A DNA stretch of 64,000 nucleotides from contig CANLEQ010000021.1 in the NCBI GenBank assembly GCA_947489705.1, positions 1 to 64,000 on the forward strand, in the 5' to 3' direction. Each line of letters starts with the position of its first letter. Within the stretch, counting starts at the first letter, position 1. The notes below the pieces were generated by a model, which saw nothing but the letters and a program-made list of their open reading frames with translations, did no database searches and was not told the origin of the DNA. This document shows positions 1-12,763 of this stretch, one piece after another. Made by a program: the position numbers and the translations under genes. The stretch is from an uncultured Paracoccaceae bacterium (GTDB lineage Bacteria > Pseudomonadota > Alphaproteobacteria > Rhodobacterales > Rhodobacteraceae).

Positions 1-25
1 GATCGCTCATGTAATCGCTCCGTTT

Positions 26-316
26 TCAGAGGCGTGAATCACGCAGCGCAACTGAGATCAATGCATCCTGACCGTAACGCCCACGGGTGTTTCGCCGGAT
101 GTAATCCACCCACGAACTGAATTTGATCAATCTCATTTTCTCTGACATTTCGACGTATTCTAGCTCATCCTCATCCATGAGGCTTCGGATCCTGGACACA
201 GAGATACCGACACGTTTGGAGAGTTCGTCCGGAGTGAGGTACTCTTCTCCGTCTCCAAGCAAGTCTCTCGTCATATTGAGATATCCATTGTTTTGCCGCA
301 TGAGGTGAGAGATCAT
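26..316 (-). CDS. small helix-turn-helix DNA-binding protein
   Basis: About 96 residues if read from the ATG at 316; a GTG at 370 and an ATG at 301 are alternatives. The middle (TPDELSKRVGISVSRIRSLM) has the look of an excisionase/MerR-type helix-turn-helix, followed by a short wing-like stretch and a basic C-terminus. It is divergent from the XRE gene beginning near 353, so the two probably share a control region. Such small HTH proteins near an integrase often act as recombination directionality factors or repressors; that role is inferred from context, not shown. No specific family recognised. Confidence 0.55.
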   Translation of the reverse strand: MISHLMRQNNGYLNMTRDLLGDGEEYLTPDELSKRVGISVSRIRSLMDEDELEYVEMSEKMRLIKFSSWVDYIRRNTRGRYGQDALISVALRDSRL

Positions 317-352
317 ACCTGCGCTGAGATATGTCCCTATAGCCAAATTTAT

Positions 353-832
353 GTGCAGAATCGTACACACTCGACCGTTAGTGAGGCCGATCTGAGAAAG
401 TTCCGCAATACTGAAGTTGCAGGTTTCGACCCTTCGCCCAAGGCGATCGGAGCGCGGCTTGCTCTTGTCAGAATAGAGGCGGGCCTAACCCAGGCAGAAT
501 TCGCGAAGCGCTTGGGCGTCTCGCTCCGGAGCTACCACTTCTACGAGAAGGGTGACCGGAGCCTCTCGCATGCCAATATCGTCACGCTGGGGGATGAGTT
601 CGGCGCCGATCTGAACTGGCTATTCCTGGGACCCGAGGTGGCGCCACACTCGTCGGAAGCAGAAGCTCTCGAGGAGTTTGAAGCATCTTTGGATCAATAT
701 CTGTCGGAAAATCGCATTGACCTTTTACCGGAAAAGAAGCGCGCGATCATTGCCACTTGGTACCAAGGTCGTCGTCGAAAGTGGCCGTATGTGCAGGACA
801 AGGTCACTTTTTGGATCGAAATGCTGAGGTGA
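353..832 (+). CDS. XRE-family transcriptional regulator
   Basis: A Cro/C1-type helix-turn-helix occupies roughly residues 28-95 of this reading (IGARLALVRIEAGLTQAEFA, then the recognition-helix segment RLGVSLRSYHFYEKGDRSLS), followed by an acidic linker and a basic C-terminus. The frame has no ATG start; candidates are TTG 293 and GTG 353. I use 353 because 293 would put the start deep inside the divergent gene. It lies 3 bases before the membrane-protein gene at 836, so they are probably co-transcribed. Likely a local repressor of the island; targets unknown. Confidence 0.72.
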   Translation: MQNRTHSTVSEADLRKFRNTEVAGFDPSPKAIGARLALVRIEAGLTQAEFAKRLGVSLRSYHFYEKGDRSLSHANIVTLGDEFGADLNWLFLGPEVAPHSSEAEALEEFEASLDQYLSENRIDLLPEKKRAIIATWYQGRRRKWPYVQDKVTFWIEMLR

Positions 833-835
833 GAA

Positions 836-1222
836 ATGACATTCACGGATGTGACCGAGACCGAATTGCGTCGGGAACTGCTCCTTCAGGACAAGCTGCT
901 CGGTGAGCAACGGCGGCGCGGGCAACCGGTGGTCTACTTGCATTGCACCGCCGCCGTGACCTTTCTTATCGGGCAGATCTTCTACGCGATCTTTCCTTTG
1001 CACCTGAGCACGATGGATCTCCGGTTGGTATTGTTCGTCGTCTCCGGATTAGGCGTGGTACCACTCAGTCTCATCGTTTGCGTCAACTTCGTAAGGGAAG
1101 CGCGCCACGCGGCTAGAATGGTCAGATTGCGGAATGGGTTGGCTGATGGCTCCTTCCAGACCTCGAGATCGAGATATTCGTGGCCAATCGACGTAGTCCG
1201 GCAGCTGCGTGAGGCTGCCTGA
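836..1222 (+). CDS. hypothetical two-helix membrane protein
   Basis: 128 residues. A charged N-terminal helix (about 1-32) precedes two hydrophobic segments at about 36-56 and 62-84, then a basic cytoplasmic-looking tail. The start is 3 bases after the XRE stop, with a GAGGTGAG ribosome-binding site inside the end of that gene. No family recognised. It is near a second two-helix protein (1304-1522); small membrane partners are common in island operons, but nothing in the sequence fixes a function. Confidence 0.6.
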   Translation: MTFTDVTETELRRELLLQDKLLGEQRRRGQPVVYLHCTAAVTFLIGQIFYAIFPLHLSTMDLRLVLFVVSGLGVVPLSLIVCVNFVREARHAARMVRLRNGLADGSFQTSRSRYSWPIDVVRQLREAA

Positions 1223-1303
1223 TGCGGTCAGGAAAGAATCACGTGAAGCTGCAGGTGTCCGCCCAAGCGATCTGGAAGCGAGATCCCCATTGAGGAGCTA
1301 TTC

Positions 1304-1522
1304 ATGAAGCGGAAGCAAAGCCTCGCCGCTTACAATGAACGTGTTAAACTCGTGGCGAAAACGGTAAATCTGATCGCTATCGCCCTGATGGTACTTGCGA
1401 TCTGGCCGTCGCTATTCCCCCACGCGGAGACGGGTCTCGTCAGGGTCGGTTTGGCAGCCGGTGGCCTAATTCTCTTTTTTGTCGCGTATTTAATCCTCGG
1501 GTTCCTGATGATCGACAGGTGA
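1304..1522 (+). CDS. hypothetical small membrane protein
   Basis: 72 residues with two predicted transmembrane segments (about 19-36 and 46-68) and a basic N-terminus (MKRKQSLAAYNERVK), suggesting both ends inside. A good Shine-Dalgarno sequence (GAGGAG, 6 bases before the ATG) supports translation. It follows the 836-1222 gene by about 80 bases in the same direction. Function not recognised. Confidence 0.55.
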   Translation: MKRKQSLAAYNERVKLVAKTVNLIAIALMVLAIWPSLFPHAETGLVRVGLAAGGLILFFVAYLILGFLMIDR

Positions 1523-1564
1523 GGCGCTCCGGAATAATTCCGGCGCGCCTATCCGATCTCCAAA

Positions 1565-1594
1565 CTCTTTACAGAACGTGCCTAGTGTAAAGAG
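1565..1594. repeat. perfect 9-bp inverted repeat upstream of the integrase
   Basis: CTCTTTACA (1565-1573) and its exact reverse complement TGTAAAGAG (1586-1594) flank a 12-base spacer, about 50 bases before the integrase start. It could be an integrase or regulator binding site, or a weak hairpin ending the upstream transcript; there is no T-tract. Confidence 0.45.
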
Positions 1595-1646
1595 ATGCGC
1601 TGAGCCAAGCTAAGCGAGGCAGTGACTTACAAGGGGCGACGGACCC

Positions 1647-2234
1647 ATGCCCGACCGGCGAAGTGTCAAGAGTGCCGACGACCGTGCGGCAGATGCCCAT
1701 GTTCGCGGCCGGGATTACCTTGGTCAGCCAGATGTCGACCGGCTCCTCGCCGCGAGCAAAAAGAGCGGCCACAGCGTCCGGGACCACCTCCTGATCCGGA
1801 TGATGTTCCGGCACGGGCTGCGCGTCTCCGAAGCGATCGCGCTACGCCGGCAGGACGTCGACCTCGCCCAGTCGCGGATCTGGATCACCCGGCTGAAGAA
1901 CGGGCTTAGCGTCGAGCAACCGATTGCCGGCGACGAGCTGCGCGCTATCAAGCGATGGCTGGCGCGGCGGGATGATGCGCTCCCCTGGTTGTTCGTTTCC
2001 GAGCGGAAGCAACCGCTCACGCGGCAGGCGGTCAATTACATCATCGGAACAGCCAGCACCCGTGCCGGTCTCGGCCGCGTCCATCCCCACATGCTGCGTC
2101 ATTCCTGCGGTTTTGCCCGAGCGAACATGGGCCGCGGCCTTCGGCTGATCCAGGATTACCTTGGCCATCGAGATCCCCGCCATACGGCGCACTACACGCG
2201 GACGGCGGCGCACCGGTTCGACGACCTGTGGTAG
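1647..2234 (+). CDS. short tyrosine recombinase/integrase
   Basis: 195 residues, consisting almost only of the catalytic domain, as in FimB/FimE-type recombinases. All expected catalytic residues are visible: Arg59 (HGLRVSEAIALR), Lys84 (RLKNG), His148 and Arg151 (HMLRH), His174 (YLGHRD) and the nucleophile Tyr183 (HYTRT). It therefore should be able to cut and rejoin DNA through a 3'-phosphotyrosine. It lies in the island that ends at the tRNA-Pro gene and is convergent with the large defence-like genes. The missing N-terminal core-binding domain argues that it may invert or excise local sites rather than act as a typical phage integrase. Confidence 0.88.
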   Translation: MPDRRSVKSADDRAADAHVRGRDYLGQPDVDRLLAASKKSGHSVRDHLLIRMMFRHGLRVSEAIALRRQDVDLAQSRIWITRLKNGLSVEQPIAGDELRAIKRWLARRDDALPWLFVSERKQPLTRQAVNYIIGTASTRAGLGRVHPHMLRHSCGFARANMGRGLRLIQDYLGHRDPRHTAHYTRTAAHRFDDLW

Positions 2235-2401
2235 CTGAACGCTGCATTTGCGGCGAAAAGCAGGAAGGGCGGAAAGCGGAAGTTCGCCGCAGTCGTGAGG
2301 GCTTCGCGGACCGATGGAAGGAGCGGACCTTGAGCGACTAGTTTGGCTGAATCCAGGCAGCTTCGGATCGCACGCCAAAAAATGGATGCTCGCCTGCCAA
2401 A

Positions 2402-5400
2402 TCAGTTCCCGTCCTCTGCATCGGGATCGGGCTTCAAGATCGGCCAAGGGCGCCCTGACCCAAGATCTGGATGGCGTGGCTCCGATTCTGGAGCGCCGTA
2501 CTTGTCCCGGAGCTTGTCTATAAGATTGAGACAGCGGGGAGCGGGGTCATTCTGGCTGCCGCTGTCCGTCATCGCCAGCAGCTTCCGGCGCAGATCGACT
2601 GCCGGGACGGGCACGACATCGTAGGCACCCTCCCAGTTCTCTACCGGGACGTGCTCCGTGACAGCGCTTTGAATCGACTGATAGGTCATAAACGAACGTC
2701 CAGTTTTCTTCTCAAAATCGATCAGCATCAGTATGCCTCTCGTGCCAGGGTCTTTGGCGACTGCGCCAGCTAGCAAGGCAAGCTGCTTCGTTGTCGGCCC
2801 ATCCTTCAGGAGGTCGTGGACATAGGAGCGGATCTCGGAGAACTCCGAAATCAAGCCACCTAATTCGCGTTGCCACCGCCACCCGTCATATGACTTGCCG
2901 TCGAGCGCACCGCTGACGGTCAAGTCGACAAGGCGATGCGCGGCGGATACGGTGCCGAAGCTCAGCGCAGTCGCGCGCCACCCGTCATTCTGGTAGAGAC
3001 GCGGGTCGTCTTCGGCGAGCTTGAAAGTCACGCTTTCAGCATCGTCGGAGGACGAACTGCCGAGTCCGCGGACCATCTCTTCGAGCATTCGTGGATGGCG
3101 CTGCGCGTCCGGCATGCCGCGCACGATGGCGGGCAGATCGGTAACAGGCGTGGCGAATGGCAAAAGGCGCAACCAATCGCGTAGCTGATACGCGTCGCCC
3201 TGTGTCAGAATCCACGTTTCCTTCTCGGTCGCCTCAAAGGTCTCAGCTATGCCGTCGGCCACGAGCTCGATGTCGATATCCTCGCCAGAGATGACCAGCG
3301 ATAACAATAAGGCTGCGCGCGCCTGCCTCGGCGCGAGAGAAATGAGCTTCTGGATCGTCGCGTCACGCTGGCCGTGGGGGAGTCGTGCTCCAACAATGCC
3401 GAGCGCAACCGCCAGCTTCACTTGCGCATCCGACGAACCATCGACAATCAAGGTCTCGATTGCGCTGAAGATCGCCTCCGCCTCGATCGATGTCGCGGCG
3501 GGATCGGCGGCGCGGGCCTCCCGGCGCGCTTCCACGCGCGAGAAGTCTACGCCAATGCGGAACTTTCCGTCGTCCTTGGGCTCGTTTGCTTCGAACCATT
3601 GAGCAGCCAGCACACGCGCCGCCAGCTCGCCAAAATGCTCATCCGTCAAGTATTGACGCATCAGCGCAGCGGTCTGCGGCGCATTGATTGCCAAGAACGC
3701 ACGTTGGTACTCGTGCATGTGCGGATGCTGTGCTTCGTGTACAGCGTCGCGATCCTTCCCGCCGCTCGCGGTTGCTTTCTCACGGGAAGCACGGTAACGA
3801 CGTAAGTTATCGTCAAGCATCCTTTCCAAGAGAGGAAGGTGTGCGACGGACGGTGCGCGGCTTATCATCGTTGCAATGGTAGCCACTCGCCGGCGCTTCT
3901 CATCCCCAGCAGCGAGCATGTGCTCGGCCCATTCGTGCGCTAACACCCCGATTGCAGCCAAACCTTCCTTATTGAAGGGCCGCGCCCGATTTTTGTTGCC
4001 AAAGGTCACGCGGGAAAATAGCTCGGCCAGCTGGACGATTTCCTCATATTCGGCGTTTGCCGCCCGCGCTTGAACGGCGGCTATTAAACTTGCGCCCGGC
4101 GTCTGGCCGATACGGTCGCGCAGACTGTGATAGCGATCACCCGCAGCCTGATTGTATTGCCCGCTGGCGTCGCGCATGACTTTTCCTGCGGCAAGATACG
4201 CGTCGATCAGCTTGCCAACAGCGTTTGGTCCCAGCACTGAAGCAGCGGCCTCGGCGCGATCGTCGTGGCGGCTTGTTTCTTCGAGGGCGATTCCGAGCAG
4301 TGCGTCGTCCTCAAGCGCAAACCCCGCGGCCGCAAGAATATCGTCCGCGCCGAAGAAGAGCTCGTGATGCTCGCGCAAGCGGCGCAGCAGCCCTTCAGCT
4401 AGGGCCTGCGGCCAACGTCTTCGCACCTCGTACAACAGGTGCCTCCCGCCATCGGTCTTCCGGTCAATCTCCATGTTAGCGATGAGTTCGGTGACCTCGG
4501 TTTCATGGCCTTTCGCACTTGTCGCATTGAGTAGCGAATGCAGCCGCTGAAAGGGCGACAGGCCGGTGGCTTCGCGGCGTCCACATGCTCGCCGTAGTTC
4601 TTGCTGAACAGCATCAACTGCAATGTCCTCAAGGTGACCCTTTTCGGCGAGGATGTCATAAGTCGTTTCGCTCGCATCCGTGAGTAAGTCAGCAACGTGA
4701 CGATCCGCCCGCCGAAATACGATGCATCGACCACCGCCGCTTTCACCTCCGGATCGCCGTCGATCCTCGCGATCTCAGTCGCAAGGTCGAGGCCGTCAAT
4801 CCCGCCATTCGATGCAATTTCGCAGAGTACGTTCTTACGAATGTCCGGAGGCAGCGCTGTGATGCGCGTCTGCGCGTTACTTCCAAGCACGGACGGACGA
4901 AACTGCCGCGCTGCTCGAAGCGCGTGCAAGTGTACTTGATCCTCGGCATGCGCAATCAGTGGCCAAATAAGATCGGCGAATTCCGGTCTTCCGGACGCGA
5001 CCATGAAGTGAACCGCGCGATCCACCTTGCCTGGCGCGTGCCACTTCTCGGCAAGGCTCCGCATCTCAGTGCCGATTGGCACCCATACCTCGTCGGTGGC
5101 GCGGAAGATCATCTCGCCCGAGAGGACAGGATCAACGTCAAAAGCTGCTCGGATGGCAGTGCGGCATGCTTCCCTCTGCGCAGCGTCGTCGCGCGCACTC
5201 CGTTCGACGGCGAACATGACCGCCTCTTCCCACGGGCGCTGATTGAGTATGTCGGCCATCAGTTTCTCAAGCGCTGCCGGATCGCTGACAGCCTGCAGCA
5301 TCAGTCTTTCGACGTAGTGCGAGGCGTACCATTCTTGAAATTGCTGGTGCTGGAACGAATAGCCCGGCGTGTCGCCGGAGCGCGTAAGAACATGATTGCT

Positions 5401-6780
5401 GACGAGCGTGTCGAGCAGCGTGCCGGGCTGTATGGTGACGGTCATCTGTCCATCGGTCATCAGAACCCGCGCGGTCTCGGCAACCGATTTGCGCGCGTTG
5501 CTGTCCGTGATCGCCGTGTTGGCCGTCGATGTGGCGAACGCCGCGAGCTTGTCCAAATAATCCTGCTGGAAGCCGAGGGCCGCGGCATGAAGCGCCGCCG
5601 CACGGCGGGGTTCCTGCTCGTGCGCTGCAACAAAGCGACGTAGCACTTCTTCCTTTGTGGTCGGAAAAGGCGCGCCCTCTGGCAGTGACAGCAGTGCCGT
5701 GAGATAGAGAGGAATGGTGACGAGTTCGCGGACGCCTGCTGTCCGCCAGGCCTGATCGACGAGCTGTGCTCCAACCTCGCCGCGCATGCCGCGCGCAATC
5801 TCCATTTGCTGTTCGGCGTCAAGCGGCAGTAGATCGACCCGCGTCCCACCGAAAGGAATGCCGAATGCCTGCCTGCGCGTGGAGATGACAAGACCGAGTT
5901 CCGGCAATTCAGCCTTAAGGGCCGAGATTTGCACGCGCGCGCGTTCACGTGCGGCGGCATCCAGTTCGTTCCAACCGTCAAGAAATAGCACAACACCGGG
6001 TTTCGCCGCGACGGTGCGGAAATCCTGTTCGGTAATTCCGTTAAACGCGGGGCGTTTCAAGATGGACACGAGCAACCCGTCGCCTCTAGTGGCCCAATCT
6101 CCCAGTGGCACGACAAACGGTGTGCCATTGCCGATCTCCAACACGCCTTCGGCGACCTGAAAGAGTGTCGTCGTCTTTCCCATTCCGGGTGCCGCGACAA
6201 GGATGAGATCACCCAGCTTGGTCACGGCGTTGGCAAGCGCACGCGTGCTCAGCGCCTCGTCCACGTGTTTCACCTTCAACGTCAGCGTGAGCTTTACGGT
6301 TGTGCCCGGCCATTTGGGTGTGCGGCGAAACACAGCGAGATCGGCAGCGGCAGCCTTTCGTACGCATGCGCCTATTTCCAGATCAGTCGGCGGCATGGTC
6401 GGGCCGAAGGTAACCTTATCTATTATGCTGCGCCACATGTCATTGGAGTGCCTCTGCTTCCAAAATTGCAGGAGTGTCTCGGAAAAAGTGGGATCATCTG
6501 AATCAATCGCTTTGGCACAGTCCTGGCAAAGCCAAATCCCGTTCTCATCCGATTTTCGTTGTTCGGACGTCATATCGGCGCGATAGCGGCGCGCACCGAG
6601 TCCGGGGGCTGCTGCACAGATATGGGCGGCAACCCCAATATTCATTTCCTTTGAGCCATCGCTGGTTGGCGCTGACGTGAGCTTCCTGCAACTAGGATTG
6701 CTACAATGATACCGGGCTAGCTTCGCGAGGCGATTCTTGGTTGCCTGAGTGAAGTCGTCCCTATTATTACTTTTGGTCAT
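2402..6780 (-). pseudogene. HNH-NACHT NTPase with long C-terminal repeat region, frameshifted
   Basis: Two overlapping frames join into one protein of about 1,460 residues. The 5' part (6780 to about 4706) starts MTKSNNRDD. It has a zinc/HNH-like module with Cys26/Cys31, a GVAAHI box (His53) and a C-x-x-C at about 85-88, then a NACHT-type ATPase with Walker A PGMGKTT (about 198-204) and Walker B VVLFLDGWNEL (about 263-273). The 3' part (about 4705-2402) is a long helical region of HEAT-like character, the usual position of the sensor. Past about 4706 the first frame turns into nonsense, while the next frame reads on sensibly (DLLTDASETTYDILAEKGHL), so one base is missing. Its start overlaps the upstream nuclease-STAND gene by 14 bases. 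Probably an anti-phage effector now inactive, unless the shift is a sequencing error. Confidence 0.75.
4700..4715 (-). other. frameshift site in the HNH-NACHT gene
   Basis: Reading the minus strand, codons for YFGG at 4719-4708 are in the first frame. From GAT at 4705 the sensible protein (DRHVADLLTDASE) is in another frame, leaving two orphan bases at 4707-4706. One lost base here restores an uninterrupted reading frame to 2402. Confidence 0.7.
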
Positions 6781-9700
6781 CGACGATCTGCTCGGATTCG
6801 GTAGTGTGAACACGTTTAATAATTTGCCCGTCGATGGACATATCGCCGATCTCGGATGACATCAAAAGTAGAGCCACATATTCCGCTGCCTCTGCGATAT
6901 TACTTGAAGCACCGCCAATCGCAGCCTGCGCTTCTGCGGCGAAATCAACGTCTCCAGTTCGCAGATGCTCGATCAATTCGGACACATCCGATCGCATGGC
7001 TTGATCAAAATCACTGAGCCGTCGGGTCAGTTCCTCGTGCTTTCTTTTAAAGGCAGCCTCCAAGCTCCGACGAGCAGCAATCTCTTCTTCGGGACGAGTC
7101 TCATTGCCGAGCCGCTTTTGATCCATTGCCCCAAGTTCGCTGGCGAGGCTCAGTACCTCCCCAAACATGCTTGCGATAACAGATGGGGCTTGTGGCAATC
7201 CGAGTTGTTCAGCCCAGAAGGCAGCACCTTCCACGTCAGGAAGGAGGGTCTGGTAACCAGACTTTGCGAGCGCCGGGAACGCGACATCCTCAATGTAAGG
7301 CATGATTGTCAGATGGATAGACGAGTCCACCAACGACCGTACGAGTTCGGCTTGTTCAGCGAGCGCGACCACCGCATCTGCAATGTTGGGCACGGGCAAC
7401 AGAGCGAGAACGTCTGCTGGCGGCCACGGTAAAATACCACTGGCGTTAATACGAACGTGGAACTGCGCGACGATCCCAGCTTCCTCTGCCCGGCGCTCAA
7501 TTTTTGCCTTTCGCTGAGCTAGTCGCGTTTCCCCGGCAGCTTTGGCAGAGAGGGATACGAGCCAAACGGAGTTGCCTACTCGCGCGCCTTTGCCGCGCGC
7601 CGCCCAAGTTACCGCTGGTGCTTGCTTCCTTTCATGGGCTTCTCCGGCAATAAGTCGCAACGTCTCCAATAGCGTCTTAAGTCGGGTAAGTATTAGTGGA
7701 GGACCGTCGGCGACGAGATGCCAAGGTTCTTCGGCAATTGCAATGTCGACATCGGCGATGAGGTCGCTCAACCAGGCAATGTATGCACCAGCTTGGTCGG
7801 GCAGTATTGCGAACCTCTTGACAAGATTGACGCTTACGCTGTGCAGGAGGTTCTGGAACTTGGTGACGGCGGTGTTAGCCTCTCGGCGCCCCGCGCCTGA
7901 CGCTTCCAATGATGAAACAGCGGGAGGCGTCAGTTCTTCGGTATCCGCATTAATTGAATTCAGCTTGTCGGCGAGGTTGCCGAGTGCATCCTTTCCTCGA
8001 AAATGCGCGTCGAAGACCTTCTCCAACGTCGGCACAAGGGCATCGAGAATTGCTACGCCTCTGGCAAGATAGTCGCTATAGCTCGGAGCGGCGACGCGGC
8101 GGGAAATCAGATGACCCCACCGCTGATTCCACTGAGGAATTGACGGTGGTGGAAGATTTTCTCGGGGAATTCGCTTTGTTGCAAGCGGCAACTGGGCAAC
8201 ACCTGCCAATTCGCCACTTGCAGTAATAGCGTTGGACACCGCAATGTCAGCCGGCGGACATAGTGCCAATATCCGCTCACACAAACTTACAACCGCGTCG
8301 TGCGGATTTTTCTGTACAGAGCCGGCAACGTACCAAAGATCGCAACGGACGATCATTTCATCATCGGCATCTTCGATTGTTACAGGCCCGGCCCAAGCTG
8401 TCTCTGCCTGAACCCGAGCGAACAGCGCCTCTTGCCCGACCTCGGCGACCCAATCACTGGCGATCTCACGATCCAGGGCGGACAGGGTGCCCATCAAAGA
8501 CTCCAAGAGATCGAGATCGGCATTCAAGAGGCCTTCGGGAGCCTGCATGAGACTGGTCCGCACCGCGGCTGGCAATGGCATTCCGACCAATGCTGCGAGA
8601 ATCTCATCTAAGCTCGCCAAATCCGCCGTCTCGATCAGGCCAGACAAGACAGAGGGTGACATACGCTCCATCAGCAGGCGGCGAGGGTCATCTTCCGGCG
8701 AACCTTTGATCTGCGAGAGTCGATCCGCCGCGGCCTGGACCTCCGGGATGATGCTGAGACTACTCAGATCAATACCCGCGATCCCGAACATTGCGGCGCT
8801 TCCGACTTGCGTTCGCGGCAGCGCACGCGCTTCAGGCGTGTCCAGCCATTCGTCAACGCCCGAAGAAACCCGGCCCGAGCCCAGCCCCCGGAGCGCTGAC
8901 GCAAACGCCCGCGCGTCCTGTTCGCCCTCCACGCGGGTTATCAAGCCATTGAGCACGGCCGGGACAGGCAAGCGCCGCGCAGATAGCGTGTCCGCGACCA
9001 ACGGCTCGAGATCGGCGGCGGGCACACTTACGATCGTCTGTTCGAAACTCGTTTTGAGTGTCGGCAATGTTGTCTTGTGCGTGAGCTGCAGCAATTCTTC
9101 GGATCGAAGCTGGTGTAGGCCGGTGACGGCGCCCGGAGCAGGCGAACGAACTAGATGTTCCTGGATGAGGCGCTGTAAGGCGCGTGAAAGATCGGCCTCA
9201 CTGACCGAGAGAGCGCCCGCCAATCGCGATGCATCAACTTCAGCATTTGCTGCGCCTGCCCGGGCGGCCGACCGCAAAATATCAAGTTCGAGGGAACGCT
9301 TCGGATCTGAAATCCTGGCCGCGACTTGATCGGCGAGGAGTTCGTGCATCCTCTGTCCGCGCGTCAGGATATGGACATATTCTAGAAGAAGGCCGTTGCT
9401 CATCTTCCACGGCTCGCGCCAACCTACCCAGTCCGTCTTTTCGACTTCGCGCAGTTCTCGCCAGAGTCGTTCTGCAAGTTCATCGTCGGGATCGGCGCGT
9501 ATTTCAGCTGCACGGGCGCGCTCAGCAATCAGCGTGACATCTTCTTCCCGGACCGAACCGAGTAGGACGACGCCTGGCACAGACATCGCTTGTTTGAGCA
9601 AGGCGCCCCAACTTTCCGGCCCATTCCGGCCAACATCATCCATGACAAAGCCCAGGGGACTGTCTTCTGAAGCGCGAAACGTCCGGATCAACTGGCGCAG

Positions 9701-10714
9701 AGATGGAATATCCTCCGCGTTCAGTCGACGGATGCGAAACCAACGCACCGTATGGCGCAAAGTGTTAGCGGCCTCCCACATCAAAGCGGATTTTCCAGCC
9801 CCAGATGGTCCAACGATCAACGCTGCCCGGCGTTGCTCAATACCTTCCACCAAAAACGACCTGCTTCGTGGGCGTTCGGCCACCAAACCCGCCGCGATGT
9901 GACCAGGTTCTACATCGACCCCGAGATAGAAGTTCGGCTCGTTGAGAGGTGTAAGGAAATCGACCGGTTCGCAGACGCCATCCCTGAGAGCGCGTTCGAT
10001 CACGTCAATGTCGATCGCGGTCAAGACATCGCGGATTGATGTTTCCGTGTCAGAGATCGAAAGGCCACGATAGTTGTTCGGTGCCAACCGGCCATTGGCG
10101 TCTGCCAAGGTGCCCACGCGGAATAGCAAATCGGCAAAGCACATCTGGGCTGCGATCGGGGCGCAGTTCAGCCGATCTACAATCAGCTTGATCGCCCATT
10201 CCTGCGGCGAGGTCGCGACGATGATTGATGTTTTTGGGAGAAGATCAGAGGCCGTACTGAACTCCGAAAGCCTGCTGCTGATCGGGCCATCGATTGAGCG
10301 GACTGCGGGATGGTCGTTGAGAGGCCGTAGGCCTGCCACCTCCCGCTCAACAACGAGTTCCAGTTGTTGCGGCCGCGGCGCAGAGCCAAGCGCCCGGTTC
10401 CACAGATCTTCTATGTGCCTGACTGTTTCGCCTTCCGTATACTCTCCGAGGTACTCACGTCGGCTCTTGACTTGGACAAAACTAGTTGCGTCGCCACGCA
10501 GCTCAATATCGTCGCCACCTTCCGGAATCATAATGGCGGGCGCTCGCTGACCAACCCATATTTCTACCGCTAACCAAGCGGAAACGGCATCCTGAAAACG
10601 AAAGCCCCGGCCTGCATTAGACCCAGCTCTGGATGCTGCTTTCTCCGATTTGGTCTGCGCCTCAGAGGCACCCAGCCTGCGTTTTCTCTTTGTTTTCGGA
10701 GCCAAATATACCAC
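6767..10714 (-). CDS. nuclease-like (DUF4297/Cap4-type) domain fused to a STAND-like P-loop NTPase
   Basis: About 1,315 residues. Near the N-terminus (about 37-85) the order GRGFRFQDA, PEGGDDIEL and FVQVKSRRE gives the spaced Q, E, DD and QxK residues of PD-(D/E)xK endonucleases of the DUF4297/Cap4 type. A Walker A motif (GPSGAGKS, about 302-309) and a Walker B-like LGFVMDDV (about 354-361) follow, then about 900 helical residues that could sense a trigger. The start is uncertain: an in-frame TGA lies just upstream and only TTG 10717 or GTG 10714 precede the conserved part. The next gene (HNH-NACHT) overlaps it by 14 bases, so they form one operon. Cleavage of nucleic acid in response to an invader is inferred from domain logic. 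Confidence 0.72.
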   Translation of the reverse strand: MVYLAPKTKRKRRLGASEAQTKSEKAASRAGSNAGRGFRFQDAVSAWLAVEIWVGQRAPAIMIPEGGDDIELRGDATSFVQVKSRREYLGEYTEGETVRHIEDLWNRALGSAPRPQQLELVVEREVAGLRPLNDHPAVRSIDGPISSRLSEFSTASDLLPKTSIIVATSPQEWAIKLIVDRLNCAPIAAQMCFADLLFRVGTLADANGRLAPNNYRGLSISDTETSIRDVLTAIDIDVIERALRDGVCEPVDFLTPLNEPNFYLGVDVEPGHIAAGLVAERPRSRSFLVEGIEQRRAALIVGPSGAGKSALMWEAANTLRHTVRWFRIRRLNAEDIPSLRQLIRTFRASEDSPLGFVMDDVGRNGPESWGALLKQAMSVPGVVLLGSVREEDVTLIAERARAAEIRADPDDELAERLWRELREVEKTDWVGWREPWKMSNGLLLEYVHILTRGQRMHELLADQVAARISDPKRSLELDILRSAARAGAANAEVDASRLAGALSVSEADLSRALQRLIQEHLVRSPAPGAVTGLHQLRSEELLQLTHKTTLPTLKTSFEQTIVSVPAADLEPLVADTLSARRLPVPAVLNGLITRVEGEQDARAFASALRGLGSGRVSSGVDEWLDTPEARALPRTQVGSAAMFGIAGIDLSSLSIIPEVQAAADRLSQIKGSPEDDPRRLLMERMSPSVLSGLIETADLASLDEILAALVGMPLPAAVRTSLMQAPEGLLNADLDLLESLMGTLSALDREIASDWVAEVGQEALFARVQAETAWAGPVTIEDADDEMIVRCDLWYVAGSVQKNPHDAVVSLCERILALCPPADIAVSNAITASGELAGVAQLPLATKRIPRENLPPPSIPQWNQRWGHLISRRVAAPSYSDYLARGVAILDALVPTLEKVFDAHFRGKDALGNLADKLNSINADTEELTPPAVSSLEASGAGRREANTAVTKFQNLLHSVSVNLVKRFAILPDQAGAYIAWLSDLIADVDIAIAEEPWHLVADGPPLILTRLKTLLETLRLIAGEAHERKQAPAVTWAARGKGARVGNSVWLVSLSAKAAGETRLAQRKAKIERRAEEAGIVAQFHVRINASGILPWPPADVLALLPVPNIADAVVALAEQAELVRSLVDSSIHLTIMPYIEDVAFPALAKSGYQTLLPDVEGAAFWAEQLGLPQAPSVIASMFGEVLSLASELGAMDQKRLGNETRPEEEIAARRSLEAAFKRKHEELTRRLSDFDQAMRSDVSELIEHLRTGDVDFAAEAQAAIGGASSNIAEAAEYVALLLMSSEIGDMSIDGQIIKRVHTTESEQIVDDQK

Positions 10715-10717
10715 CAA

Positions 10718-11082
10718 AATTCAGTGTTTTCTGTCTCGAAGTATACAGGTTTTTTCTTGCACGCACACTTCCCCCAGCCTGAGGCCAAGGTGAACATTGC
10801 CAAAGTAGCGAATGACAGGTTTGACGTGCCGCACCGCAGCTAAGGTCGAGCCAGGCGAACGGCGGCTGCGGGCCGATCGCAGTCCTGCTAACCGACGATA
10901 AGAGCGACCATCACGCCCCGCGTTCGCTGTCAGAATTGAGGAAATTGCAGCGCCACTGATCTGGATGCGGGGCGGCAGTCGCACCTCCGCTCGCCACCGT
11001 CTTGCACTCGCTCGATCCTCAATTTGAGGAAAAATAGTGACCGACGAGGAAGACTATCGTGGCAATCCACAAATTTGAGATC
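10718..11082. other. gene-free, AT-richer stretch between the defence-like operon and tRNA-Pro
   Basis: No frame here looks coding. It must carry the promoter of the operon reading leftward. A short palindrome CCTCAATTTGAGG lies at 11017-11029 and could be an operator. The right edge abuts the 3' CCA of the tRNA-Pro gene and probably marks the island boundary. Confidence 0.5.
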
Positions 11083-11159
11083 TGGTCGGGCAGAGAGGAT
11101 TCGAACCTCCGACCCCCTGCTCCCGAAGCAGGTGCGCTACCAGGCTGCGCCACTGCCCG
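11083..11159 (-). tRNA. tRNA-Pro (anticodon CGG)
   Basis: 77 nt on the minus strand. The acceptor CGGGCAG (5' end at 11159) pairs with CTGCCCG at 11093-11087; the anticodon arm is CCTGC-TTCGGGA-GCAGG with anticodon CGG; the T-loop is GTTCGAATC; ACCA is encoded at 11086-11083. The 3' end faces the accessory island, as expected when a tRNA gene serves as an attachment site. Confidence 0.95.
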
Positions 11160-11174
11160 ACCGTGGGATGTGCC

Positions 11175-12185
11175 CTATTGCTTTGGAGCGCGCTTGGCAA
11201 GGGCTTCGTAGCCCGGCGGCATGCGGTTTGCCTGCAGGCGCAGGATTGCGGGGATCCGCGGCACGGCGACGTTCTCCATCCGGGTGCTATAGGCGCCGAC
11301 GGGCGTGGTGTTGGAGGTTCCGCCGATGCTCTCGCGCACCACGATATAGAGGCCGGAGGCGATGATGATGCCGGCGCCGATCCAGGTGGGAAGGTCCGGC
11401 CGCTCCTGGAAGAAGAGCGCGCCGAAGATCGCGGCCCAGATGATCTGGGAATACTGCATCGGGGCGACCACCGCCGCCTCTCCCAGCCGATAGGCCGAGA
11501 TCATGATGAGGCCGGCGGTGAAGGCCAGCAACGCGACCAGTGCGACCATGCCCAGATGCACCGCCTCCATCGGCCGGTAGACTAGCGGCATCAGCGCGCC
11601 CGTCAGGACGAAGTTGGCCACCATCGGGTAGAGGAGCAGCACGACACCGCGCTCTTCGCGGCCGATCTTGCGCACGATGACGGAGGCGGTCGAACTGCCC
11701 ACGGCGGTGACGAGGGCCGCCGCATGCCCCAGGCTCAGCGCGTCGACGTTCCAGGGGCGCAGCACGACCAGGACGCCGACGAGCCCCGCGATCACCGCCC
11801 CCCAGCGGTGCAGACCGACCTTTTCGCCGAGGATCGGGATCGACAGGACCGTCACCAGCAGGGGCGACGCGAAGATCAGCGCGTAGACCTGCGCAAGCGG
11901 CAGGTTCGAGAAGGCGTAGAACGCGCCCATCAGCGCCGAGACCCCGGCGATCGTCCTGAGCGCGATCCACCACGGATGGACCGGGCGCAGCGTGCCGGAG
12001 CGCGGGTCGCGCATCAGCATGACGGTGGCCAGCGGAAACCCCAGCAGGACGCTGAAGAAGATGATCTGGAACGACGAATAGGTCTCGCCCAACGCCTTCA
12101 CCAGGACGTCGTGCGACGCGAAGAGGGCGAAGGCCAGCAAGGCGAGGCCGGGACCGATCAGCGCGGGAGGAAGACGTTGGGGCAT
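11175..12185 (-). CDS. EamA/DMT-family transporter
   Basis: 336 residues with about ten hydrophobic helices in two repeated halves, as in drug/metabolite exporters (RhaT/EamA). The first half begins [20 protein letters not shown] and includes an EamA-like end-of-helix [12 protein letters not shown]-type segment. The second half contains [20 protein letters not shown], typical of the repeat. The C-terminal 40 residues are a polar tail. Substrate cannot be told from sequence. It ends 15 bases from the tRNA-Pro gene and is divergent from the DUF421 gene. Confidence 0.88.
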
Positions 12186-12271
12186 GCGGGAACCGTGAAC
12201 GCCTGTCGATTGCGCTCGTCAAGGGGGAACTGAGACCTTAGGGACAAGCTGTGGTGAAAAGGGGGCGGGGG

Positions 12272-12763
12272 ATGGACTTCATCGATACCGTGTTGCGCGC
12301 ATTCGCCATCGTCGCGGTGATCGTGGTGATGGTAAGGCTCAACGGGCTGCGCAGTTTCTCGAAGATGTCGGGGTTCGATTTCGGGATCACCGTCGCCAAG
12401 GGCTCGGTCCTGGCGAGCGCCGCGATGGCGCCCGACTGGGAAGCCTTTGTCGAGATCGCGGTCGCGCTGGTGGCCCTCTTCGTCGTCCAGGGGACGGTCT
12501 CACGGCTGAGGGCCCATATCGCGCCGTTCAAGTCCGCCATCGACAACACGCCCCTCATGCTCATGCGGGACGGCGAGATCTTCGGCGGCAATCTCAAGCG
12601 CGGCAATATCAGCCACGACGACCTCATGGCCAAGCTGCGCGAGGCGAATGTCCTCCGCCTGAGCGAGGTGCGCGCTGTCATCCTCGAGGAAACCGGCGAC
12701 GTGAGCGTCCTGCACGGTGAGGCGAGCGTCGACGACGCGCTTCTCGACGGGGTCCGGCGCTAG
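12272..12763 (+). CDS. DUF421 (YetF-like) membrane protein
   Basis: 163 residues from ATG 12272; a GTG at 12251 is in frame, but the purine-rich AGGGGGCGGGGG just before 12272 fits a ribosome-binding site there. Three hydrophobic segments (about 5-90) are followed by a soluble domain ([20 protein letters not shown]) characteristic of DUF421 proteins. Members are of unknown function, often linked to envelope or stress phenotypes. Its last four bases overlap the end of leuB on the other strand. Confidence 0.82.

Follow-up and report, generated by a model that had tools for sequence, protein, structure and literature searches.

Bacterial immune proteins of the STAND and NACHT kinds are for the most part regarded as sensors and effectors united in a single gene, and Avs genes usually occur singly; for genes that come in twos, the paired NLRs of plants, in which a sensor works with a helper, provide the comparison. 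Avs3 and Avs4 combine a Cap4-type N-terminal nuclease, a central STAND ATPase and a long helical C-terminus, and the bNACHT and other bacterial NLR-related proteins (including those named HyoA and EruA in NCBIfam) carry an effector, a NACHT ATPase and a long helical C-terminus with an NCAB2 domain. Here, we describe a locus in which two genes, A and B, encode one protein of each of these builds side by side. It is located in a stretch of 64,000 nucleotides (nt) from an uncultured Paracoccaceae bacterium (positions 1 to 64,000 of contig CANLEQ010000021.1; referred to as the window). We consider it probable, at roughly 0.6, that A and B encode two Avs-like sensor-nucleases which are expressed together and move between hosts as a single anti-phage cassette, a reading drawn from sequence comparison and structure prediction. 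Support is provided by the domains, the conserved catalytic and P-loop residues, the conserved overlap of the genes, their co-occurrence in differing flanks and purifying selection. The locus is laid out as follows:

6767..10705, minus strand: gene A, nuclease-STAND protein of about 1312 amino acids (aa), from a single open reading frame (ORF) and the alignment of relatives
10178..10630, minus strand: Cap4/LmuA-type PD-(D/E)xK nuclease domain of A, boundaries approximate
9038..10015, minus strand: STAND ATPase region of A, with the P-loop at about residues 303-311 and the acidic D360, boundaries approximate
6770..9037, minus strand: mostly helical C-terminal region of A according to the secondary structure of the model, presumed sensor
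6767..6780, minus strand: overlap of 14 nt between the end of A and the ATG of B (6780)
4714..6780, minus strand: gene B, piece 1, residues 1 to about 687, HNH and NACHT
6436..6780, minus strand: Cap5-type HNH domain of B, approximate (PADLOC PDC-M68A, 1.2e-19)
5311..6288, minus strand: NACHT region of B, approximate (Pfam NACHT, 0.011)
4714..4723, minus strand: reading-frame break within B, from comparison with intact relatives
2402..4723, minus strand: gene B, piece 2, in a different frame, residues about 686-1457, helical repeats and NCAB2
2441..2674, minus strand: NCAB2 (NACHT C-terminal alpha/beta 2) of B (Pfam PF22726, 6.3e-29)

The open frame of A reaches 10717, and the start points of its relatives make the TTG at 10705 the likely start. 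The N-terminus of the protein matches Cap4_nuclease of Pfam weakly (15.7 bits, cut-off 26.2) and LmuA of PADLOC at 9.1e-4, and a profile built from eight homologues matches the solved LmuA structure (PDB 9ux7) at 2.7e-5. Residues Q42, E66, D70 and K84 of the nuclease are invariant in all 36 aligned proteins (that of the window and those of 35 of the 39 loci from the genome scan described below, L042, L047, L051 and L078 being excluded), and so are G306, G308, K309 and S310 of the P-loop as well as D360. The ATPase matches AAA_16 (5.5e-5) and nSTAND5 (2.7e-4), both under the Pfam cut-offs, and the C-terminal region is less conserved than the STAND part. An AlphaFold2 model of residues 27-1222 from the 36-sequence alignment reached a pLDDT of 86.4 and a pTM of 0.70; searched with Foldseek, it retrieved Avs3-terminase (8dgc, 1.1e-9) first, then human SAMD9 and Avs4-portal (8dgf, 5.4e-6). 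As the TM-scores of these top matches are low (0.14-0.21), the likeness between A and Avs3 concerns domain order and parts and not superposable wholes. A first-pass annotation, made by a model from the letters alone, had assigned to A a PD-(D/E)xK nuclease of the DUF4297/Cap4 kind, a P-loop ATPase of the STAND or NACHT kind and a helical C-terminus; the LmuA profile match and invariant residues, and the predicted resemblance to Avs3, agree with it.

In B, the model PDC-M68A for the HNH domain is matched by all 12 aligned relatives. The domain also matches Cap5/SAVED-HNH effectors and solved HNH/SAVED proteins (PDB 9om4, 3.2e-12), which bears out the HNH/zinc module proposed earlier for this N-terminus; the SAVED-HNH matches stop by about residue 135, and the NACHT region comes next. 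The latter scores weakly in Pfam, at 16 bits against a cut-off of 26.7, and is weakly NLRC4-like (0.035), and its P-loop and the motif LLLDGWNE are conserved among relatives. Of the STAND or NACHT ATPase and helical C-terminus that had been expected in B, the C-terminal part is supported by NCAB2, and the ATPase is a putative NACHT with a conserved P-loop and a Pfam match below the cut-off.

The overlap noted in the first-pass annotation proved to be 14 nt long, and the arrangement recurs. A genome scan with an A profile yielded at least 39 loci. Close homologues of A, defined by more than 79% identity to A of M. algicola, numbered 13 among the scan matches listed; the sequence suffices in 12 of these, and B is located next to A in 11 (L042 is left out because its sequence stops 244 nt past A, and the B of L051, partial and running to the contig end, is counted as present); the twelfth, L054, has an A at 94% identity and no B. 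When six loci are added to the 12 among the matches listed (the window, M. algicola, G183, G058 at a contig end, a Ruegeria plasmid and a remnant in G135), B, whole or partial, follows A at 17 of 18 determinable loci, which are partly non-independent (A does not differ between L009 and L041, and the B proteins of G058 and M. algicola are 99% identical). Uncounted are G611, apparently the same genome as L053, an Arthrobacter A fragment, three further Agrobacterium copies and a Sphingopyxis A interrupted by an insertion sequence (L011). The Ruegeria plasmid record (L009 12316 / L016 1) stops in B at about 128 aa, and the identical stretch continues in L041; the closure of this record may be faulty. 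Among 292 Rhodobacterales genomes, A was present in 6, a long B in 6 and both in 4. When the genome under study is taken out, the numbers for the remaining 291 are 5, 5 and 3 (hypergeometric P 2.4e-5), and A and B are adjacent in all three co-carrying genomes, although one of these pairs has decayed to a remnant and another sits at the end of its contig. Across 385 class-level genomes, this one included, A was found in 3, B in 2 and both in 2. The first-pass annotation had named two outcomes that would speak against its proposal, namely that homologues of the genes almost never co-occur and that nuclease or NTPase folds are missing; the co-occurrence in 3 of 291 genomes and the folds supported above point the other way. 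Of 14 A-B junctions measured, 11 are overlaps of 8-26 nt and three are gaps of 16-30 nt, so that a conserved adjacent two-gene arrangement, as for paired NLR-like sensors and helpers, is present. In viral contigs, 55 stretches fitted a pattern for A and none was a relative; relatives of B (29-62% identity) lie on the IMG/VR contigs L094, L095, L096 and L097 with no giant gene upstream.

Both genes are under purifying selection, with a median dN/dS of 0.21 for A (12 sequences, 66 pairs) and 0.195 for B (11 sequences, 55 pairs), and the ATPase is the most conserved part in both proteins. The HNH domain of B (residues 1-115) comes in two kinds among the 11 sequences, one in L008, L046, L047 and L060 and the other in the remaining seven. 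The two kinds are 55-59% identical in the HNH domain versus 85-95% in the NACHT region, and this divergence of the nuclease next to a conserved ATPase suggests that the HNH domain has been swapped as an effector.

Several observations weigh against the proposal of a single anti-phage cassette. The pair is seen in a single clade of A only, from about 80% identity upward, and part of the A-B synteny may therefore reflect recent common descent. A and B each also occur without the other, which counts against a unique obligate system. Coevolution was sought via correlated distances and not found: in the nine shared genomes, distances of A and B are uncorrelated (Pearson r 0.14, P 0.41), so that no tight A-B coevolution is seen. 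No defense model of PADLOC or NCBIfam covers the whole of A or the whole of B. The structural model of B is poor, with a pLDDT of 62.8 and mostly below 50 at the N-terminus; the Foldseek matches obtained with it, which were led by HEAT-type repeat proteins and included Avs4 and NLRC4 at lower ranks, are only a hint. Co-expression, sensing, oligomerization, cutting, cell death and phage as the target are all what we infer for A-B. Finally, the frame of B is interrupted in the window and, at other places, also changes in L055 and L045.

This last point deserves closer consideration. The first-pass annotation had treated B as one gene here, which does not hold: it is split over two frames at 4714-4723. 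Aligned to the intact B of M. algicola (1458 aa), piece 1 covers residues 1-688 and piece 2 covers residues 686-1457. The frame also shifts in Roseitalea L055 (around residue 734) and in Arenimonas L045 (around residue 1275), and B of ten close relatives is one continuous frame. A programmed frameshift was rejected on these grounds, that is, the different positions of the changes in L055 and L045 and the uninterrupted relatives. Compared with nine intact relatives, dN/dS of B is 0.15-0.25 before the break and 0.20-0.28 after it and thus stays low, such that the break is either very recent or an error of sequencing or assembly. Whether the copy in the window, as distinct from the family, is a decayed remnant with B as a pseudogene that no longer works as a pair stands at about even odds: the break itself speaks for it and decayed copies exist elsewhere (the G135 remnant, fragments in G121 and G097, a stop in A of L047), but dN/dS is still low past the break, A is intact and the family has intact members. 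If the break is no assembly error, B is interrupted and probably only A can act in this genome.

The surroundings of the pair change from host to host. In blastn comparisons of 13 pair loci, similarity mostly stops within about 120 nt of the start of A and within about 140 nt of the stop of B. Exceptions upstream are M. algicola and G183, which have 1.9 kb or more in common (up to the limit of the sequence compared), L053 and L055 (1.8 kb), L044 with L053/L055 (at least 1.1 kb, to a contig end) and L045 with L047 (0.6 kb); downstream, L044 and L055 share 0.3 kb. The carriers are mostly Alphaproteobacteria from several families, plus one metagenome-assembled genome named Arenimonas. Integrases are found near the pairs of L043, L060 and L055 and a VirB8 gene near that of L053, and the M. 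algicola pair adjoins genes annotated as KAP P-loop protein and Mg-dependent DNase, a block that we take to be a Qat system. In L053, L055, L054 and L044, the last 8 nt of an upstream gene overlap the start of A. This gene is AbiEii by Pfam in both cases tested (L053 and L054) and looks alike by eye in L055 and L044, and the gene preceding it in L053 is DUF6088, which we interpret as AbiEi-like. These AbiE-type toxin-antitoxin genes lie upstream of A at 8243-10008 in L053, 8174-10008 in L055, 4094-5931 in L054 and 3-1124 in L044, and by their arrangement they are predicted to make a three- or four-gene operon with A (and B) in some hosts. Similar genes were seen by eye upstream in G135 and L048, an AbiEii gene is located downstream in L049, and AbiE-type genes are absent beside A in the window. 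Homologues of A in L063, L072 and L078 lie near genes that look, by eye, like restriction-modification genes.

Such neighborhoods could be read to mean that A and B are independent defense genes that mobile elements have merely packed side by side in islands. Both families are indeed found alone or with varied defense neighbors (AbiE, the Qat-like block, integrases), L054 retains A without B, and the distances of the two proteins are uncorrelated. Yet gene order and, mostly, the overlap are kept across several families despite differing flanks, co-occurrence is far over chance and only one apparent loss is seen in 18 loci, and we therefore consider mere stacking improbable.

The conserved overlap and the borders of the unit would also fit an obligate or cooperating pair, in which one protein senses and the other helps or executes, partners are swapped and the A family serves as a general helper of several STAND sensors. 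This idea, developed by analogy, appears unlikely to us, though less so than stacking. It was weighed at 31 A loci outside the B clade (26 from the scan plus G158, G198, G451, Agrobacterium and Caulobacter), six of which have another giant gene of at least 1000 aa on the same strand within 400 nt. The giant is Avs3a-like and full length in L061 (1409 bits), a HyoA-like NACHT gene in L050 (565 bits, 8411-12727, overlapping the end of A by 1 nt), weakly and partially Avs4-like in L059 (36 bits) and weakly PDC-M54A-like in L062 and L069 (32-38 bits), and the unscanned one in L035 resembles that of L069 by eye; all scanned partners fall under the curated cut-offs where these exist. L050 also contains B-like C-terminal fragments about 7 kb away on the opposite strand. 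At two further loci, a giant lies past an AbiE pair (L048, Avs4-like, partial, 91 bits; L049, Avs3a-like). Against cooperation, the remaining 23 of the 31 loci have no partner giant, and 5 of the 21 with at least 3 kb on both sides have one. Among 14 control loci (11 NACHT, 2 full Avs3a-like, 1 nSTAND5; G013, with the focal gene at a contig end, G369, with a short focal gene, and G383 are omitted) none has a neighbor of at least 700 aa. Three of the 11 NACHT controls have a neighbor of 553-674 aa, and two are short of room downstream. The proportions 6/31 and 0/14 do not differ significantly (Fisher P 0.16), and the limits on neighbor size were set after the data had been seen. In a quick tree, the carriers of B form one clade that includes L054, and the partner types are spread across several lineages, of which some sit on long branches and are unsurely placed. 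For B, genome G079 (L032 7021-10605) has an 80%-identical copy that overlaps an LmuA-like-NACHT giant upstream (LmuA match 3.9e-4), again by 14 nt; A was not found in this genome. The relatives of B in Methylocystis, R. phaseoli and the four putatively viral contigs, on the other hand, have no adjoining giant. Strict dependence of A and B on each other is disfavored because their distances are uncorrelated and solo homologues exist. More doubtful still than cooperation in general is the specific scheme in which A would be a helper STAND nuclease with interchangeable sensors (B, HyoA-like, Avs3a-like, Avs4-like), B would take another helper in G079 and the HNH domain would be exchanged as a cassette, a bacterial counterpart of paired NLRs.

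If A and B form the anti-phage cassette that we favor, a phage component would be bound by the C-terminal helical region of either protein, upon which the STAND ATPase of A or the NACHT ATPase of B would oligomerize and activate the N-terminal nuclease, PD-(D/E)xK in A and HNH in B; the active nuclease would cut DNA and infection would be aborted. The 14-nt overlap would couple translation of B to that of A, and this coupling would provide one locus with two triggers and two unlike nucleases.

Three neighboring features lie outside the two genes:

1647..2234, plus strand: tyrosine integrase ORF, 195 aa (Phage_integrase, 9.4e-41)
293..832, plus strand: gene for an XRE-type regulator (HTH_3, 3e-9)
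11083..11159, minus strand: tRNA-Pro(CGG), a possible edge of the island, located upstream of A

The integrase ORF is convergent with B and a neighbor rather than part of the A-B unit. GC content is 0.56-0.61 across positions 1-10,000 and 0.61-0.72 per 2-kb step beyond. The integrase, the regulator, the tRNA gene and the lower GC content match the defense-island setting suggested at the outset, but a repeat indicating integration at the tRNA was not seen: the tRNA-Pro region (10951-11200) has no exact repeat of at least 14 nt elsewhere in the window, and the gene was rejected as attachment site. The window begins at the contig end (the contig has 65,868 bases) and the integrase ORF is short; the island may therefore be cut off at 1-2400.

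A mobile locus with two sensor-nucleases, unlike nucleases and swappable partners would offer a way to learn whether paired immune receptors exist in bacteria. It would also raise the questions of how a single cell keeps two suicide nucleases in check and how phage escape drives partner exchange. Intact pairs exist for experiments, even though B is broken in the window.

Among described systems, A comes closest to Avs: its best match by predicted structure is Avs3, and it has an N-terminal effector nuclease, as judged by sequence and motif, as well as a STAND ATPase with an intact P-loop. None of the Avs models of PADLOC (E up to 1) or NCBIfam (E up to 0.1) matches A, and it is therefore filed only as Avs-like and not under an Avs type; membership in Avs1-5 or Lamassu by sequence was rejected for want of a whole-protein match. 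At about 1312 aa, it is shorter than the Avs3a model with its 2083 positions, and, unlike the usually single Avs genes, it is coupled to a second nuclease-NTPase. B differs from bNACHT proteins by its Cap5-type HNH domain, and a HyoA-like protein occupies its place beside A in L050. HyoA and EruA are NCBIfam names, and no defense paper using them was found in the literature searched. With Cap5, the HNH-SAVED effector of CBASS, B shares the HNH domain, to which the match is limited; it lacks SAVED and has NACHT and repeats instead. Lamassu LmuA and Cap4 nucleases share the nuclease domain of A without any match past it, and an SMC-like partner of the LmuB type is not present beside A in the window, where B takes that position.

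Nuclease-protease pairs offer a further comparison, in that a gene pair is reported to have been recruited by several unrelated defense systems including Avs and Lamassu (PMC12799240). In those pairs, the protease activates its partner nuclease, whereas A and B are both nuclease-ATPases. A description of paired bacterial STAND/NACHT genes was not found in the openly licensed literature searched. Within the scope of that search, the suggestion of the first-pass annotation that the system is undescribed can therefore stand for the pair, and less so for its parts, since each of the two proteins is built like known Avs or bNACHT sensors.

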